In this document: positions 2,073 through 14,728 of the stretch, piece by piece | Layout of the letters: each line of letters starts with the position of its first letter | Numbering within the stretch: position 1 is the stretch's first letter | DNA from: Pseudomonas sp. ZH-FAD | GTDB taxonomy: Bacteria > Pseudomonadota > Gammaproteobacteria > Pseudomonadales > Pseudomonadaceae | Direction: 5' to 3' | DNA: 64,000 bases | NCBI RefSeq assembly: GCF_002803095.1 | Contig: NZ_PGLR01000001.1 | Coordinates: forward strand, 1-64,000 | Position numbers and translations under genes: made by a program | The notes under the pieces: model-generated | Databases searched by the model: none | Told to the model about the DNA's origin: nothing | Seen by the model: the letters and a program-made list of their open reading frames with translations, nothing else

Positions 2073-3539
2073 ATGAAGTGCTCGCCTGCCCTGCCATTCG
2101 ATCTTTCCGGCATTCATCTGCAGCCCGGTCAGGGCCTGGCACGCCAGCTCTACCAGGCCTTGCGCGAGCGCATCCTCGATGGCCGCCTGGCCAGTGGCAC
2201 GCGCCTGCCGGCCAGCCGTGAGCTGGCCACCCTGCTCGGCATCTCGCGCAACACCGTGACCCGCGCGCTGGACCAGCTGTATGCCGAGGGCTACGTGAAC
2301 GGGCGGGTCGGCGATGGCACCTACGTCGCCGAGCTGACGCGCCGTCGGCCTGCCGCCATAGCAGCCGTCGCCCCGGCAGCGGCCAGCCCGGCACTGCAGC
2401 TGTTGCACAACCATCACCTGGCGATGCCCGCCGCGGGCGCACCGCGCGCCTTTCGTATCGGCGTGCCGGCTTTCGACCTGTTCCCCTTCGAGACCTGGGC
2501 ACGTCTGCAGGCGCGCTTCTGGCGCAAACCCTCGCTGGCCCGGCTGGGCTATGGCGACCCTGCCGGTGACCTGCAGCTGCGCGAACTCATCGCCGCCTAC
2601 CTGCGCAACAGCCGCGGCCTGACCTGCGAGGCGCAGCAGGTACTGATCACCTGTGGTTCGCAGCAGGCCATCAGCCTCTGCGCGCAGTTGCTGATTCAAT
2701 CGGGCGACCGCGTGGCCATCGAAAACCCCGGCTACCGCGCGGCGGGCCATGCCTTCGCGGTGGCCGGCGCGCAGCTGTGCGGCATCACAGTGGATGGCGA
2801 AGGCCTGGACGTTGACGCCCTGCAGCGCCTGGGCGATTGCCGGCTGGCCTATGTCACGCCCGCGCATCAATACCCCACCGGCGTCACCCTGTCTCTGCCC
2901 AGGCGCCTGGCCTTGCTGGAGTGGGCCAAGCGCGTCAACGGCTGGATCATCGAGGACGATTACGACGGCGAGTACCGCTACAGCGGTACCCCACTCGCGC
3001 CACTGGCAGCGCTGGACGAGCAGCTGCGGGTGATCTACATCGGCACCTTCGGCAAGCTCGCCTTTCCCGCGCTGCGCCTGGGTTATCTGGTGCTGCCACC
3101 GGCGTTGGCCGAGAGTTTCGCGAGGCGCCAGGCGCTGGAGATACGCCACTCGGAGGTCGGCACCCAGGCGGTGATGGCCGAATTTATCGCCGCCGGGCAC
3201 TTCCAGCGTCATGTGCGGCGCATGCGCCAGGCTGCGCGCAGCCGCCGCGACGCTCTGATCGAGGCCTGGCCGCAGGCGATTCCCGGATGCTCACCGTTGC
3301 CGGCCGTGGAAGCCGGCCTGCACCTGAGCATCAGGGTCGAGAGCCTGGCCCGTGAGCGTGAGCTGATTGGCGCTGCCCGCGCAGCCGGTATCGAGATGAA
3401 TCCCTTGAGCGATTACTGGCTGCCCGACAGCGAAACCTCTGAGGACGCCCGCGCCGGGCTGGTGCTGGGTTTTGCGGCAGTGCCCGAGGCGCAGATCGTC
3501 GAGGCGGTGCAGACGCTACGCCGGGCGTGGGGGCTGTAA
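2073..3539 (+). CDS. MocR/PdxR-type PLP-dependent transcriptional regulator
   Basis: The 488-residue protein fuses an N-terminal GntR winged helix (about residues 22-88, with [22 protein letters not shown]) to a fold-type I aminotransferase-like domain (about residues 130-485). The presumed PLP lysine is K328 in [15 protein letters not shown], and the [12 protein letters not shown] block is typical of MocR proteins. Such regulators sense PLP or an amino compound through the aminotransferase domain. Divergent placement from the PaiB-acetyltransferase cluster suggests that cluster as a target; this is an inference. The start has several in-frame alternatives near 2073. Confidence 0.9.
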
Positions 3540-3601
3540 CGCAGGTCATCCGACGGTGCGCGCGGCGCACCCTGCGGCGGTCAACCTTGAATGGCAGGCC
3601 A

Positions 3602-3630
3602 CAAAAAAAGGGATGGCCGAGGCCATCCCT
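3602..3630 (-). terminator. Rho-independent terminator of the gltP-like gene
   Basis: A perfect 10-bp stem (3609-3618 with 3621-3630, AGGGATGGCC arm) is followed on the minus strand by a run of seven T residues read from 3609 to 3603. It lies 42 bp past the stop of the symporter gene, which is also on the minus strand. Confidence 0.88.
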
Positions 3631-3671
3631 GAAGGTTGAGGCTGGTGAAGGCCTCCTATGAAAGCGGTTGC

Positions 3672-4925
3672 TCAGGCAGCGTTGTCGCTGTTGTAGATCT
3701 CGCGATCCAGCTCCTTCTCGCTGCTGCCCACCAGGGTGGTGGTCATCAGGTCGCCGGCGACGTTCACCGTGGTGCGCGCCATGTCGAGGATGCGGTCGAT
3801 ACCGGCGATCAGCGCCACGCCTTCCAGCGGCAGGCCGACCGAGGTCAGCACCAGGCCGAGCATGATCAGGCCGGCACCCGGTACGCCGGCGGTGCCGATC
3901 GAGGCCAGGGTGGCGGTGAGGATGATCATCAGGTACTGGCCGGCATTCAGGTCGATGCCGAAGGCCTGGGCGATGAACAGCGCCAGCACGCCCTGGTAGA
4001 TCGCGGTGCCGTCCATGTTGATGGTGGCGCCCACCGGCAACACGAAGCCGGCTACGCCCTGCGACACACCGAGGTTCTTGCGCGCACACTCGATGGACAC
4101 CGGCAGGGTGCCGGAGCTGCTCGAGGTACTGAAGGCCACTGCCAGCGCCGGGGCGATGCCGCGGAAGAAGCGCAGCGGGCTGAGACGCGCCAGGCCGCCG
4201 ATCAGGCCACCGTAGATCAGCAGCATATGGGCGATGCTGGCCAGGTAGATCACCCCGATCACGCCGGCCAGCGGCAGCAGCACCTCGATACCGTGGGAGG
4301 CGACCACGCCGGCGATCAGCGCGAATACGCCGATGGGGGCGAAGCGCATCACCAGATCGGTGAGCTTGTAGAACACCTCGGCCAGGCTGTCGAAGAGACG
4401 GACCACCGGCACAGCCTTTTCGCCAACCAGATTCATGCTCACGCCCAGGGCGATGGCGAAGACGATGATCTGTAGGATGTTGCCTTCGGCGAAGGCGGTC
4501 ACCGGGTTGGTCGGCACCAGGCCCACCAGGATCTGCACCAGCGAGGGCGCCTGCTTGGCCTCTTCACTGCCGCTGGCAACCATGTTCATGCCTTCACCGG
4601 GGCTGAACAGGGTGCCGAATGCCAGGCCGATGCTCACCGCGAAGGCAGTGGTGATCAGGTAGATGGCGATGGTCTTGACGCTGATGCGGCCAAGCTTGGC
4701 GCTGTCGCTCATGGCGGTGATGCCCGCCACCAGGGAGACGAACACCAGCGGCACGATCAGCATCTTGATCGCGTTGAGAAACAGCGCGCCGACCGGCGCC
4801 AGCCCCAGGGCGAGACTCTTGAACAGCATGCCGACGACCACGCCGAGCACTAGGCCGACGAGGATCTGCTGCCACAACGGCACGCGCGCAAGGAAGGAAG
4901 AGGAAGCGGTGTTGCTCTGACTCAT
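3672..4925 (-). CDS. gltP: Dicarboxylate/amino acid:cation symporter (GltP/DctA family)
   Basis: A 417-residue inner-membrane protein of the DAACS family, which imports glutamate, aspartate or C4-dicarboxylates with protons or sodium. Hydrophobic helices run through the first 230 residues. The family signatures are present: FSTSSSSGTLPVSIECA (serine-rich re-entrant loop, about 265-281), the PVGATINMDGTAIYQG motif with NMDGT, and GVPGAGLIML. An in-frame GTG at 4937 also exists; ATG at 4925 is chosen because the protein then begins MSQSN, as relatives do, although neither start has a strong Shine-Dalgarno. Adjacent aspA would convert imported aspartate to fumarate, a plausible functional pairing. 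Confidence 0.88.
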   Translation of the reverse strand: MSQSNTASSSFLARVPLWQQILVGLVLGVVVGMLFKSLALGLAPVGALFLNAIKMLIVPLVFVSLVAGITAMSDSAKLGRISVKTIAIYLITTAFAVSIGLAFGTLFSPGEGMNMVASGSEEAKQAPSLVQILVGLVPTNPVTAFAEGNILQIIVFAIALGVSMNLVGEKAVPVVRLFDSLAEVFYKLTDLVMRFAPIGVFALIAGVVASHGIEVLLPLAGVIGVIYLASIAHMLLIYGGLIGGLARLSPLRFFRGIAPALAVAFSTSSSSGTLPVSIECARKNLGVSQGVAGFVLPVGATINMDGTAIYQGVLALFIAQAFGIDLNAGQYLMIILTATLASIGTAGVPGAGLIMLGLVLTSVGLPLEGVALIAGIDRILDMARTTVNVAGDLMTTTLVGSSEKELDREIYNSDNAA

Positions 4926-9171: not shown

Positions 9172-10200
<1,029 letters not shown>

Positions 10201-10420
10201 GCAAAGCGCTCCAGGCTCGTTGTTGTGCCTGCATTGTTCGCCCGCTGGCAGCGAATCGAGAACGCTGGCAATGGCCAAAAGGGGATCGAAATGGCCAAAA
10301 AATGGCCGAGAGCGATTTTTTAACAGCGCGTAGCGACGCTGCCCGCCGGGTCGCCGCCAGGGAGGGTAGGCCATGAATCTCCCCACCACCCACGGCAGGT
10401 AAATGTAACAACCCGTGATG

Positions 10421-10437
10421 CTTAAGCTTTCCTTAAG
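10421..10437. promoter_or_regulatory. PmrA/QseB-type response regulator box (CTTAAG-N5-CTTAAG)
   Basis: Two perfect CTTAAG hexamers are separated by exactly five bases (CTTTC), giving an 11-bp period. This is the published architecture of PmrA-type (and related QseB-type) OmpR-family binding sites, (C/T)TTAA(G/T)-N5-(C/T)TTAA(G/T). It lies 73 bp upstream of the PepSY gene and 221 bp upstream of the divergent aphA start. CTTAAG is self-complementary, so orientation cannot be decided from the box alone; a TACATT sequence (minus strand, 10402-10407) is a possible -10 for the aphA side. Nothing else was recognised in the 309-bp gap 10201-10509. Confidence 0.6.
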
Positions 10438-10509
10438 CCTGGCGGCCGATGGTGGCAACCTGCCTGGGGCCAAGCCCCTTACCATCAGCCACGCCAAAGG
10501 ATGCCGAGC

Positions 10510-10824
10510 ATGTCGACACCGGCCCGCCGCCCCGTTCGCGCCCTGACGATGCTCGCACTGCTTGCACTATCCAGCGCCGCACTCGCTGATACCGACTGCG
10601 CTCGGCAAGACCGCAGCGCCTGGATGCCCGAGTCGCAGTTCCGCGAGCAGATGAAGCGCCAGGGCGTGCAGATCACCAAGTTCCGCATCACCCCCGGCAA
10701 TTGCTACGAGATCTATGGCTTCGATGCCAACGGCCGCAAGCTGGAGATCTACTACGACCCGGTCGATGCCCGCCCGGTAGAAGAAGTCGCCAGCTCGCAC
10801 CTGGCTTCGCCCAGACACCCCTGA
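10510..10824 (+). CDS. Small periplasmic PepSY domain protein
   Basis: A 104-residue protein with an N-terminal signal peptide (hydrophobic LTMLALLALSSAALA, cleavage about residue 27) and a short PepSY-type domain: a helix (SQFREQMKRQGVQITKFRI) followed by the strand pair CYEIYGFDANGRKLEIYYDPV. Two cysteines remain in the mature protein. PepSY proteins are often controlled by PhoPQ/PmrAB-type systems and may modulate sensor kinases or peptidases. ATG at 10510 has AAAGG nine bases upstream; an in-frame ATG at 10501 is directly attached to that AAAGG and is less likely. It is the first gene of a four-gene operon. Confidence 0.82.
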   Translation: MSTPARRPVRALTMLALLALSSAALADTDCARQDRSAWMPESQFREQMKRQGVQITKFRITPGNCYEIYGFDANGRKLEIYYDPVDARPVEEVASSHLASPRHP

Positions 10825-10834
10825 ACCACCGAAC

Positions 10835-12112
10835 ATGACCTCGACCCTCAAGACCTGCGCCCTGCTGCTGGGCGCTGCCACGGTGTTCACCTGCGCCTGG
10901 TTCGGCGCTGCCCCCCACGCGCTGGCGCCCTTCGCCAGCCAACCACCGGCGCCAGCCGATGCGTCACCGGCCATGGCCGCGCACTTCGCCTCCTCCGATC
11001 TGGAGGATTTCGTCCATTCCGCCTCGATCACCGGCCTGCCCGGCGGCGATCTGATGGCAGCCTGGTTCGCCGGTACTCGCGAGGGTGCCGCCGACGTACA
11101 GATTCGCGCCGCACGCTTCGATGCCAGCAGCGGCCAGTGGAGCGCCGAGCGTGTGTTGGCCAGCCGCGAGTCGACCCAGCGCGCGGTCGGCAAGCACATC
11201 CGCAAGCTGGGCAATCCGGTGATCAGCCTGGCGCCGGACAACCGCCTGTGGTTGTTCTACGTCTCGGTGTCGCTCGGCGGCTGGGCCGGCAGCGCGGTCA
11301 ATGCCATGGTTTCCGACGACCTCGGCGACACCTGGTCGGCGCCCCGGCAACTGGTCACCAGCCCCTTTCTCAACATCAGCACCCTGGTGCGTGCCGCTCC
11401 GGTGTTCCACACCGACGGCAGCATCGGCCTGCCGGTGTATCACGAGTTTCTCGGCAAGTTTCCCGAGTACCTGCACCTGAGCGCGAACGGCGAAGTGCTG
11501 GGCAAGTACCGCATCGGCAAGGGGCGTGATTCCCTGCAACCGACCGTGGTGGCGCTGGACGAACGCCGCGCCGTGGCCCTTTTGCGCTATGCCGGCGAGG
11601 AGCATCACCGCGTGCTGGCCAGCTACAGCGAGGACGCCGGGCGCAGCTGGAGCCATCCGCAGCCGGTCGAGCCGAGCAACCCCAACTCGTCCCTGGCGGC
11701 GGTCGGTCGCCCGGACGGCAGCTTGCTGGTGGCGATGAACGACCTCGAAGACGGGCGCTTTCGCCTGACCCTTTATGCCACCGACGCCAACCTGGCCAAC
11801 TGGCGCACTCTCGGCGAGCTCGACGAAAGCCCCAACCCCTGGGGCGAACCGATTGCGCAAGACGAATTCCCGGCCGTGGTCAGTGAAAAATTCCGCGCCA
11901 GCGGCGGCAAGCCGGAGCAGCAGGCGCAGTTCCTCGAACGAGTGAGCGCGCGCATGTGCAGCGCCGAGGGCTGCACCTTCGATTACGAATATCCCTACTT
12001 CACTCGTGACCGCGAAGGCGCCTACCACCTGGTGTATTCGTGGAACGACATGTTCATCAAGCACCTGAGCTTCAACGAGGTCTGGCTCTCGGAGCGCCGC
12101 CCACATGACTGA
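10835..12112 (+). CDS. Exported sialidase-like (BNR/Asp-box) beta-propeller protein
   Basis: The 425-residue protein starts with a hydrophobic signal or anchor segment (residues about 6-27) and continues as a predicted six-bladed propeller. Two canonical Asp-boxes (S-x-D-x-G-x-x-W) are visible at 160-167 (SDDLGDTW) and 265-272 (SEDAGRSW). The class usually includes exo-sialidases, but many members only share the fold; an FAGTREGA segment near residue 78 may be the family arginine region. Substrate is unknown. The gene follows the PepSY gene by 10 bp and overlaps the next by 8 bp, so it belongs to an operon ending in an LtaS-like enzyme, suggesting action on envelope glycans. Confidence 0.8.
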   Translation: MTSTLKTCALLLGAATVFTCAWFGAAPHALAPFASQPPAPADASPAMAAHFASSDLEDFVHSASITGLPGGDLMAAWFAGTREGAADVQIRAARFDASSGQWSAERVLASRESTQRAVGKHIRKLGNPVISLAPDNRLWLFYVSVSLGGWAGSAVNAMVSDDLGDTWSAPRQLVTSPFLNISTLVRAAPVFHTDGSIGLPVYHEFLGKFPEYLHLSANGEVLGKYRIGKGRDSLQPTVVALDERRAVALLRYAGEEHHRVLASYSEDAGRSWSHPQPVEPSNPNSSLAAVGRPDGSLLVAMNDLEDGRFRLTLYATDANLANWRTLGELDESPNPWGEPIAQDEFPAVVSEKFRASGGKPEQQAQFLERVSARMCSAEGCTFDYEYPYFTRDREGAYHLVYSWNDMFIKHLSFNEVWLSERRPHD

Positions 12113-12695
12113 TTTCTGGCTGCCGCATCTGGCCTTCACCCTGCTCGCATTCCTGATCTTCGCGCGCCTGACGCGCACTGCGACGCAGCGCGGCATCCTG
12201 CTGGCGGGTTGCCTGCTGCTCAGCCTGGTGCCGGTCCAAGGCATCAGCCTGGCGCTGCAGTTGCGCACCTATATCGGCGACCTGTCGGTGGCCAGTCTGG
12301 TGCTGCTTGGCTGGGCAACGCTATGCCGTTTTGGCCTGTCGCACGCCGGCTCCCGTGATCGCCTGGCCAGCCTGGCGCTGTTCACCGGTCTGGCCGTGCT
12401 GCTCTACCCGGCGGCACTGGGCCTGAGCTATGCCGACCCTTACCAGCTGGGCTTCGAACCCCGGCCGATGCTGCTGGTGCTGGGCCTGCTGTGCGCGGTG
12501 CTGATCCTCCAGCGCAGTTGGCTCGGTGCACTGGCGCTGGTGTTGGCGACCCTGGCCTTCGCCCTGCGCCTGGGCGCCTCGGAAAACTACTGGGATTACC
12601 TGATCGACCCCTACCTGGCCCTCTACAGCCTGGGCGCGCTGCTGAGCGCCGCTGTGCGCTGGCTGCTGGCCCGACCGACAAGGAAACTCGCATGA
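12105..12695 (+). CDS. Hypothetical integral membrane protein
   Basis: A 196-residue, very leucine-rich protein with about six transmembrane helices and short loops; no family was recognised and no catalytic motif is visible. The start overlaps the end of the sialidase-like gene by 8 bp, and its TGA overlaps the ATG of the LtaS-like gene (ATGA at 12692-12695). The translational coupling on both sides implies a stoichiometric or functional partnership with those two proteins in the inner membrane. Confidence 0.78.
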   Translation: MTDFWLPHLAFTLLAFLIFARLTRTATQRGILLAGCLLLSLVPVQGISLALQLRTYIGDLSVASLVLLGWATLCRFGLSHAGSRDRLASLALFTGLAVLLYPAALGLSYADPYQLGFEPRPMLLVLGLLCAVLILQRSWLGALALVLATLAFALRLGASENYWDYLIDPYLALYSLGALLSAAVRWLLARPTRKLA

Positions 12696-14728
12696 GCTGG
12701 CTGAAATCACGCCGCCTGCATTACCTGGCAGGCCTGACGGCGCTGCTGTTCGCACTCTTCGCCGCCCTGCGCGGGCTGTTTCTGCTGGGTTTCTCCGCTG
12801 TCGATAGCGTCAGCGACCCGGACGTGCTGCTCACCCTTGGCATCGGCCTGCGCTTCGACCTGCGCCTGGCCCTGCTGCTGATGCTGCCGGCAGGCATCCT
12901 GCTGGCCTTGCCCAGGCTGCGCCTGGCGCGCTTTCGCGCGGTGCGCTGGCTGCTGCGCGGCTATCTGCTGCTGGCCGTGGCCGCGCTAGGCCTGCTCTAC
13001 ATCATCGACTTCGGCCACTACGCCTACCTGGGTGTGCGCCTCAATGCCACGGTGTTGCGCTTTGCCGGTGATGCGCAGATCTCCGCCGGCATGCTCTGGC
13101 AGACCTATCCGGTGCTGTGGATAACCCTGGCCTGGCTGGCCGGTGTGGTGCTGTGGGCCTGGGCGCTGCTGCGCCTGGAGCGCGTCACCCTGGATCGACC
13201 GCAAGCACAACGAGTCGGCGTATTGCCGGCAATCGGCGGTGCGGCGGTGGTGGGCGTGCTGGTCTTCTTCGGCCTGCTCGGCCGCGCCAGCGCGCTGAAC
13301 CTGGAGAACCCGGTGCCGCTGCGCTGGAGCGACGCCTTCTACAGCGGCAACAGCCAGATCGGTGCGCTCGGGATCAATCCGGCGCTGTTTCTCTTCGACA
13401 CCCTCAAGCTCGAACCCGCCGCCTTCGACGAGGCCGCCACGCGCGAGCATTACCAGGTGGTGGCCGATTACCTGGGGGTCAGCGAGCGCGATGCGCAGGC
13501 GCTGAACTTCTTCCGTCACCAGCCGCTGCAGGCGCATCGCATCCAGGCCGAGCGCCCGCCCAACGTGGTCTTCGTCATGCTCGAATCCCTCGGCACCAGC
13601 GCCGTGGGCGCCTATGGCAACCCGCTGAACCCGACGCCGAATCTGGATCGGCTGGCCAAGGAGAGCTGGTTCTTCCGCCACTTCTACGTGCCGGTCACCG
13701 GCACCGCCAAGACGGTGTGGGCGAGCATCACCGGCATCCCCGATGTGTCGCGCCAGGAGACGGCGACGCGCAACCCGCTGATCGCCCGTCAACGCACGCT
13801 GATCAACGCCCTGCCAGGCTACGAGAAGTTCTACATGATCGGCGGCAACGCCGGCTGGGCCAACATCAATGCGCTGATCCGCCAAAGCATCGACGGTGTG
13901 CAGCTCTATGAGGAACGCCACTGGCAGTCGCCACAGGTGGACGTGTGGGGTATCTCCGACCTGGATTTCTTCAAGGAGAGTTCGCAGATTCTCGGCGCCC
14001 TGCCGAAGGACAAGCCGTTCTTCGCCTACCTGCAAACCTCCGGCAACCACCGGCCCTTCACCATCCCCAAGGACAACGACGGCTTCGAGGCGCTCGACCT
14101 GCCGCTGGAGCAGGTGCAGCAGGCCGGTTCGCGCAGCGTCGAGCAGTACAACGCGGTGCGTCTGCTGGACTTCAACATCGGCCGGCTGATGGAGCTGACC
14201 AAGGAGCAGGGTTTTTACGACGACACCATTTTCGTCTTCTTCGGCGACCACAACACCCGCATCAGCCAGATCCCGCACATGGCGCCAGCCTTCGAGCAAC
14301 TGGGGCTGGAGAGCAACAACGTGCCGCTGCTGATTCATGCACCGAAATGGTTGGCGCCGCGCGAGTTCGACGAAGCCGTGGGCCTGGCCGATCTGCTACC
14401 GACCGTTGCCGGGCTGGTCGGCGTGCCCTTCGACAACGGTGGCCTCGGTCGCGATCTGCAATTACCTGCGCCGGAAGGCGAACGCGTGGTGCCGCTGGTG
14501 CTGCAGGAAGGCACCTTCCCGGTGATCGGCGCGGTGACCCGTGACTTCCTCGTGCAGATGCAACACGACGGCAGCTCGCCGACCCTGCACGACCTGCGCT
14601 CGCCGACCCCGCGCGATAACGTCGCCGAGCGCCACCCGCAAGAGTTCCAGCGCCTGCTGGCGCTGAGCCGTGGCTTGCATGAAGCAGCGCGGCTGCAGAT
14701 GTACCGCAACGTGCAGGCGGAGGAATGA
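12692..14728 (+). CDS. LtaS-like membrane-anchored alkaline phosphatase/sulfatase-superfamily enzyme
   Basis: A 678-residue protein with about five N-terminal transmembrane helices (residues 12-200) and a periplasmic sulfatase-fold domain (from about 288). The metal-site glutamate lies in VFVMLES (E298), the likely nucleophile threonine is T341 in GTAKT, and FFGDHNTR supplies C-terminal metal ligands. The layout is that of the lipoteichoic acid synthase/phosphoglycerol transferase group (LtaS, OpgB/MdoB relatives). A Pseudomonas has no lipoteichoic acid, so a phosphoglycerol or phosphoethanolamine transfer to another glycan or glycolipid is more likely. It is the last gene of the four-gene operon; a REP pair follows. 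Confidence 0.88.
   Translation: MSWLKSRRLHYLAGLTALLFALFAALRGLFLLGFSAVDSVSDPDVLLTLGIGLRFDLRLALLLMLPAGILLALPRLRLARFRAVRWLLRGYLLLAVAALGLLYIIDFGHYAYLGVRLNATVLRFAGDAQISAGMLWQTYPVLWITLAWLAGVVLWAWALLRLERVTLDRPQAQRVGVLPAIGGAAVVGVLVFFGLLGRASALNLENPVPLRWSDAFYSGNSQIGALGINPALFLFDTLKLEPAAFDEAATREHYQVVADYLGVSERDAQALNFFRHQPLQAHRIQAERPPNVVFVMLESLGTSAVGAYGNPLNPTPNLDRLAKESWFFRHFYVPVTGTAKTVWASITGIPDVSRQETATRNPLIARQRTLINALPGYEKFYMIGGNAGWANINALIRQSIDGVQLYEERHWQSPQVDVWGISDLDFFKESSQILGALPKDKPFFAYLQTSGNHRPFTIPKDNDGFEALDLPLEQVQQAGSRSVEQYNAVRLLDFNIGRLMELTKEQGFYDDTIFVFFGDHNTRISQIPHMAPAFEQLGLESNNVPLLIHAPKWLAPREFDEAVGLADLLPTVAGLVGVPFDNGGLGRDLQLPAPEGERVVPLVLQEGTFPVIGAVTRDFLVQMQHDGSSPTLHDLRSPTPRDNVAERHPQEFQRLLALSRGLHEAARLQMYRNVQAEE

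Follow-up and report, generated by a model that had tools for sequence, protein, structure and literature searches.

A putative PmrA/QseB/BqsR-type operator in front of a conserved PepSY-to-LtaS-like operon in Pseudomonas

A perfect direct repeat lies between a putative aphA gene and a divergent operon in Pseudomonas sp. ZH-FAD. Based upon the architecture of this repeat, its conservation and the geometry of the adjoining promoter, we propose that it is the operator of an OmpR-family response regulator belonging to the PmrA/QseB/BqsR subgroup, and that this regulator would activate the operon at 10510-14728 and not aphA; we put the probability of this reading at roughly 0.7. Positions are those of the window, the whole stretch of 64,000 nucleotides that was analysed, and its relevant features are as follows.

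9172-10200, minus strand: divergent gene of the histone-deacetylase fold (putative aphA), judged not to be a target of the box
10272-10299, no strand assigned: two TGGCCAAA copies, at 10272 and 10292
10404-10409, no strand assigned: TGTAAC, 12-17 bp upstream of the box, candidate -10 of a divergent transcript
10421-10437, plus strand (taken from the -10): direct repeat CTTAAG-CTTTC-CTTAAG (TTAAG-N6-TTAAG), putative operator of a PmrA/QseB/BqsR-type response regulator
10448-10453, plus strand: -10-like hexamer GATGGT (xAxxxT), 10 nt after the box, without a -35 match
10510-10824, plus strand: small PepSY_2 protein, encoded by the first operon gene (PF13670, 6e-25)
10835-12112, plus strand: BNR_2 (sialidase-like repeat) protein (BNR_2, 2e-80)
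12105-12695, plus strand: hydrophobic protein, transmembrane (TM) by eye, overlapping the genes on both sides
12692-14728, plus strand: LtaS-like phosphotransferase of the sulfatase fold (Sulfatase domain, 2e-39)

Results

The repeat and its promoter

Both hexamers (10421-10426 and 10432-10437) and the 5-bp spacer (10427-10431) were confirmed in the letters of the window, and two YTTAAK-like hexamers in the same orientation, 5 bp apart, form the PmrA/QseB-type box that the preliminary description had recognised here. Because CTTAAG is its own reverse complement, the box is a direct repeat on both strands and has no direction of its own.

We compared 50 box promoters: that of the window, 19 from loci in which the operon also adjoins aphA (aphA-type) and 30 from loci in which it stands beside a divergent response regulator (adjacent-regulator). 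On the operon side, an xAxxxT hexamer starts at offset 10 from the box in 45 of the 50 promoters and at offset 11 in the other 5, and at no other offset from 0 to 29 is it found in more than 19. Judged from sequence, the downstream half of the box takes the -35 position in all 50, as in a PmrA/QseB-type operator. The missing -35 match is typical of activator-dependent promoters, and no consensus sigma-70 promoter was found in 10150-10900. By eye, a similar spacing of 10-11 nt is seen in this genome at the bqs promoters, at the promoter of an operon on contig C57 and at that of a PepSY-cytochrome b561 pair. In P. aeruginosa, the downstream half-site of BqsR promoters overlaps the -35 (PMC4682146, in the parts available).

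The opposite side of the box has a different geometry. In none of the 20 aphA-type promoters (window included) does xAxxxT start at offset 10 or 11 on the aphA side; a weaker -10-like word occurs at offset 13 in 9 (TAxxxT in 8) and at offset 15 in 13. On the regulator side of the 30 adjacent-regulator loci, TAxxxT is found at offset 13 in 21. TGTWAC stands upstream of the box in 19 of the 20 aphA-type loci; in all 30 adjacent-regulator loci GTWAC is found there instead, shifted upstream by one base. TGTAAC at 10404-10409 is possibly the -10 of a divergent transcript. A divergent promoter is thus possible on these sequences, without the operon-type spacing. At one locus that has no box (L049), ATGTAAC is also present upstream of PepSY. 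Since the fixed 10-11 nt spacing is confined to the operon side, the most plausible role of the box is to activate 10510-14728, and we infer activation in preference to repression through the same box, which is also possible.

Conservation of the box across Pseudomonas loci

Named genomes were scanned with the LtaS-like protein, and the loci compared are the best 80 of 151, the nearest being from Pseudomonas chengduensis (99%). Among these 80, the operon adjoins aphA at 19 loci and has a divergent response regulator at 30; the box is present with at most two mismatches in 19/19 of the former (none in 10, one in 8, two in 1), and exactly one YTAAG-N6-YTAAG box lies within 240 bases of the regulator start in 30/30 of the latter, although the loci within each group are related and these counts are not independent events. 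At 29 further loci, neither aphA nor a regulator stands beside the operon (27 are without a PepSY match; L049 and L053 have one), and the box is absent within about 450 bases upstream in all 29. Two loci (L048 and L071) were too short to judge. Taken together, these counts indicate that the box goes with the operon and the regulator beside it and is independent of aphA. Loss of the box from orthologous loci in related Pseudomonas had been named in the preliminary description as one result that would refute its proposal; the box is kept at every aphA-type and adjacent-regulator locus.

Conservation is concentrated in the half-sites. Across the 20 aphA-type promoters, the ten pentamer columns have a mean pairwise identity of 0.99, against 0.44 upstream and 0.48 downstream (computed over the 173 promoter pairs less than 85% alike), and each of the six top-ranking 5+5 registers overlaps the box.

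Several loci vary in gene content. Two tandem PepSY genes follow the box in 8 of the 19 aphA-type loci (L019, L021-L026 and L028, at about 3460-4130), compared with one in the window. Two adjacent-regulator loci (L034 and L040) have no PepSY match, and there the box faces the BNR gene. P. toyotomiensis (L018, L091) carries a second BNR-TM-LtaS locus with neither a PepSY match nor a box. In P. anguilliseptica (L031), the LtaS-like protein is 96% identical to that of the window and the PepSY protein 58%, a contrast that may reflect mosaic exchange of the operon.

The operon at 10510-14728

The four genes are separated by 10, -8 and -4 bases, and on account of these short gaps and overlaps they probably form one operon. 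For the PepSY_2 gene, whose open frame runs from 10501, the ATG at 10510 was chosen as the start, with AAAGG upstream of it. In the PDB, the BNR_2 protein matches sialidase A only weakly (E about 0.009), and the 12105-12695 protein has no Pfam or NCBIfam match. The nearest solved relatives of the product of 12692-14728 are VP1736 and a lipoteichoic acid primase; because it scores 67.7 bits against NCBIfam LtaS, where the cut-off is 970, we call it LtaS-like only. This LtaS-like enzyme points to decoration or remodelling of an envelope polymer as a possible role of the operon. A PepSY protein can bind a sensor kinase and hold it in check, which has been shown for DbfQ-DbfS and is a prediction for PA2658-BqsS (PMC12714742, in the portion seen), and by analogy the PepSY protein of the operon may be a feedback component acting on a sensor kinase. 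In a literature search mostly outside subscription journals, no work on the regulation of this operon was recognised.

A candidate regulator of the box: the C57 system

The genome is a draft of 123 contigs (6,176,533 bases), so absences from it are provisional. It encodes 22 OmpR-type regulators as judged by the Trans_reg_C domain, and 21 of them entered a tree that also includes one reference sequence taken as P. aeruginosa PmrA (L116 was dropped, having no match to the probe). To place the regulator that stands beside the operon elsewhere, we used locus L035. For its response regulator the highest score comes from the PmrA model (254 of 330 bits), and for its kinase from QseC (249 of 475 bits); as both scores are under the cut-off, the operon-adjacent system is PmrA/QseB-like and not a named member. 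The nearest relative of this regulator in the genome is L108 on contig C57 (66%; next best 48%). The adjacent regulators group together in the tree as a 20-row clade (100/99), with L108 outside it, and the branching at the base of the L108 group is not resolved. In one genome (G044), an adjacent regulator occurs alongside a relative of L108 (70%); given this and the clade without L108, the two are probably paralogues.

Both candidate regulators, L108 and BqsR/CarR, were sought in 18 genomes of the window's group, representing 18 of the 19 aphA-type loci (L032 was left out). The L108 probe found one match at E 1e-60 or better in each. With a single match per genome, and with the adjacent regulator scoring in the same range, the adjacent regulator is absent from this group. 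L108 and BqsR/CarR are both present in 18/18 genomes, and therefore co-occurrence cannot choose between them. Two features outside the window bear on L108.

L124 2263-8721, genes on the same strand: C57 run of a thermostable-hemolysin-family gene followed by SDR, TPR, response regulator and kinase genes
L121 6855-6871 (contig C11): box of a stand-alone PepSY_2-cytochrome b561 pair, conserved in 10/10 copies

L108 lies downstream of the thermostable-hemolysin-family gene (PF12261), and a box of this class is found just upstream of that gene. Such a box precedes the C57-system operon in 8/8 genomes examined; it reads CTTAATACAGCGTTAAG in this genome and is a perfect CTTAAGACTGCCTTAAG in Stutzerimonas. 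The C57 system's own promoter has a box of the architecture of 10421-10437, but the C57 boxes of the window's group have YTAAT as first half and mostly ACAGC-like spacers, against TTAAG and CTTTC in the window, a point against L108. Among the best 80 of 151 loci, 28 of the 30 with an adjacent regulator have a PepSY-cytochrome b561 pair after the box. In the window's group such a pair is found by itself, and all ten copies are preceded by the box CTAATASRGYCTTAAG (PepSY confirmed in ten); no copy was found in 4 of the 14 genomes searched. The operon thus appears to be divided into two parts, each carrying a box, which favours L108. Its recognition helix, SNALEVHVHHLR, keeps N188, H193 and H195 of the PmrA contacts and has Ser for T187, the contact residues being those of Klebsiella PmrA (PMC3973317, as far as its available text goes). 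No work on the C57 system was recognised in the same mostly non-subscription literature. On these sequence grounds L108 is a likelier regulator of the box than BqsR/CarR, at a little under even odds, and both may bind it.

BqsR/CarR as an alternative regulator

Alternatively, BqsR/CarR, which responds to ferrous iron (and calcium), could be the main user of the box, and the operon would then belong to its cation-stress regulon in this lineage. The box is identical to the published operator TTAAG-N6-TTAAG, and in P. aeruginosa a T-to-C change of the first base in the upstream pentamer lowers expression nearly 10-fold (PMC4682146, parts seen). Both half-sites begin with T in all 20 aphA-type boxes, compared with 0 of the 30 adjacent-regulator boxes, of which 24 have C in both and 6 are mixed. 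The genome carries an orthologue, L104 on contig C110 (PDB 8gc6 for the receiver, 1e-71; 9yfa for the DNA-binding domain, 1e-48), with two PepSY genes upstream. The spacer begins with YTT in 18 of the 20 aphA-type boxes, as at bqs promoters; however, NTT also begins the spacer of 29 of the 30 adjacent-system boxes and is hence not BqsR-specific, and in the part of the published work that we saw, spacer changes shift BqsR output at most twofold.

BqsR's own sites argue against this reading. The upstream half is TTCAG in 7/7 bqs promoters examined in these genomes, whereas operon boxes have TTAAG, TTAAT or CTAAG, so that 10421-10437 does not match their form TTCAG-N6-TTAAG. The carO-like gene has an array of four pentamers that read TTCAG, TTAAG, TTCAG and TTCAG. 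In the portion available of the P. aeruginosa BqsSR regulon list, carO and PA0321 are present, a point in favour of BqsR, but the operon is missing, an absence whose weight depends on P. aeruginosa carrying the operon. We consider BqsR/CarR possible but the less probable of the two candidates; joint use of the box, or another regulator, takes up what they leave. The array of the carO-like (BOF-domain) gene lies at L125 4161-4199 (contig C90) and resembles the four-pentamer BqsR promoter described, in the text accessible to us, for PA14_04180. The preliminary description had recognised a PmrA/QseB box architecture, which was confirmed; BqsR/CarR, whose published operator the box matches, was missing from that account.

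A possible change of regulator in the window's group

The two arrangements of the operon allow a further, more tentative reading. At 28 of the 30 adjacent-regulator loci in other Pseudomonas, the genes PepSY-cytochrome b561-BNR-TM-LtaS form one operon, transcribed away from a two-component system of its own; the window's group has the operon in two parts and aphA where that system, here absent, would stand. The operon could have passed from the adjacent system to another regulator already resident, either BqsR or the C57 system, which we hold to be conceivable but doubtful. On such a hand-over, the T at both position 1s (20/20 against 0/30) would give the perfect consensus of the resident regulator. 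The direction of the change is one that we infer.

A strict PmrAB regulon is improbable

Read strictly, the box would belong to the PmrAB regulon, rank with the arnB and pmrAB promoters and drive aphA too. Its hexamer-N5-hexamer form is indeed that of Salmonella and Klebsiella PmrA boxes, the enterobacterial box being given as CTTAAG or CTTAAT, N5, then XTTAAT or CCTAAG (PMC3973317, sections seen). Searches of the genome gave no ArnB above the threshold of the family (146 of 631 bits at most; 1 of 14 control genomes was over it) and no EptA N-terminal domain (the E. coli control was positive), and consequently there are no arn or ept promoters to share the box; the arnB promoter, the yardstick of the preliminary description, was not found. 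In the ArnT domain search no control genome gave a match, so that this search does not bear on the question. The PmrA reference in the tree was a sequence taken as P. aeruginosa PmrA (PA4776), and none of the 21 genome regulators groups with it; it pairs instead with L177, from another species (98/93). Among four regulators compared directly with this reference, L108 was the best at 55.5%. The missing -10 at offset 10-11 on the aphA side also speaks against this reading. With a draft genome and this one reference, the tree and the two enzyme searches leave strict PmrAB control largely refuted and, in our estimate, very improbable. The box would work in the manner of a PmrA box, to judge by its letters, and membership of a PmrAB regulon was not borne out; of the regulon inferred in the preliminary description, the link of the box to the operon is supported, the box lying at the place expected for an activator, and the strict pmrAB/arn regulon is not.

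aphA is judged not to be a target

The histone-deacetylase fold of the 9172-10200 product fits the name aphA, as does the extracellular solute-binding protein encoded by the gene after it. The preliminary description had considered that aphA might share the regulon and that the box might link polyamine handling with surface remodelling. Neither proposal held up: the box is kept at the 30 operon loci without aphA beside it, and at least one TGGCCAAA copy lies between aphA and the box in 20/20 loci, where TGGCCA is expected 0.07 times per 200 bases. From this constant presence, aphA is probably under its own regulator, with the TGGCCAAA words probably its control element or operator. On account of the separate element and the absent 10-11 nt spacing, aphA is rejected as a target of the box, and the polyamine link is weak. 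The available part of the P. aeruginosa BqsSR list holds another acetylpolyamine amidohydrolase, PA0321, next to carO, a suggestive analogy although it is a different locus from the aphA of the window.

Chance origin rejected

That an A+T-rich word was repeated here by accident has a very low probability, and conservation in 19/19 and 30/30 of the best 80 of 151 loci, with a fixed -10 spacing, rules it out. Loose matches do carry no significance: with up to two mismatches the window has one match, the repeat itself, against a mean of 0.49 in shuffled windows, and the weight of the repeat therefore rests on its exactness and conservation. With three mismatches, a reversed control pattern had 1133 matches in this genome and the box 521; with at most one, the box matched in 33 of 40 genomes of the genus and the reversed control equalled or exceeded it in 35 of 40, and a regulon therefore cannot be delimited by the pattern on its own. 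In contrast, exact YTTAAG-N5-YTTAAG occurs once in the draft genome, at 10421-10437, where base composition of the window predicts 0.0007 copies per window and 0.07 per genome. Ten further genome regions with three-mismatch sites were inspected for their neighbours; some of these sites are intragenic.

Discussion

In the mechanism that we favour, a phosphorylated regulator dimer would sit head to tail on the repeat, with the downstream half-site standing in for the -35 element, and the regulator would recruit RNA polymerase to the -10 at 10448-10453. PepSY-BNR-TM-LtaS would be switched on and aphA would not. The products, through the LtaS-like transferase, would remodel an envelope polymer, and the PepSY protein may feed back on a sensor kinase.

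This arrangement resembles several known systems without coinciding with any of them. The P. aeruginosa BqsR/CarR operator has the same pentamers and spacing, with its downstream half at -35 (PMC4682146, parts available), but the seven bqs promoters examined have TTCAG-N6-TTAAG and nothing found here indicates that the operon belongs to the known regulon. With enterobacterial PmrA, the hexamers, the 5-bp spacer and three of the Klebsiella contact residues (in L108) are shared, to the extent that the source could be seen; unlike in that system, the tree places no PmrA orthologue in this genome, and arnB over the cut-off and eptA were not found. A small PepSY gene accompanies the two-component system in V. 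cholerae DbfQRS and likewise in P. aeruginosa bqsPQRS (PMC12714742, in the part seen), and these modules are resembled by 28 of the 30 adjacent-system loci, in which the regulator lies on one side of the box and a divergent PepSY gene on the other. The operon protein is of the PepSY_2 family (PF13670), whereas the bqsP/Q genes of this genome belong to PepSY (PF03413), and in the window's group the two-component system is not adjacent to the operon.

These results tie a conserved and uncharacterised Pseudomonas envelope operon to a regulator of the PmrA/QseB/BqsR type, and no link to polyamine metabolism is needed to explain the box. The operator has remained with the operon even in a group of genomes without the adjacent regulator genes. 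This makes the locus a compact test case, in which an operon may change its two-component system through one base per half-site. If the hand-over to a resident regulator is true, ferrous iron or another envelope signal would now control this operon.
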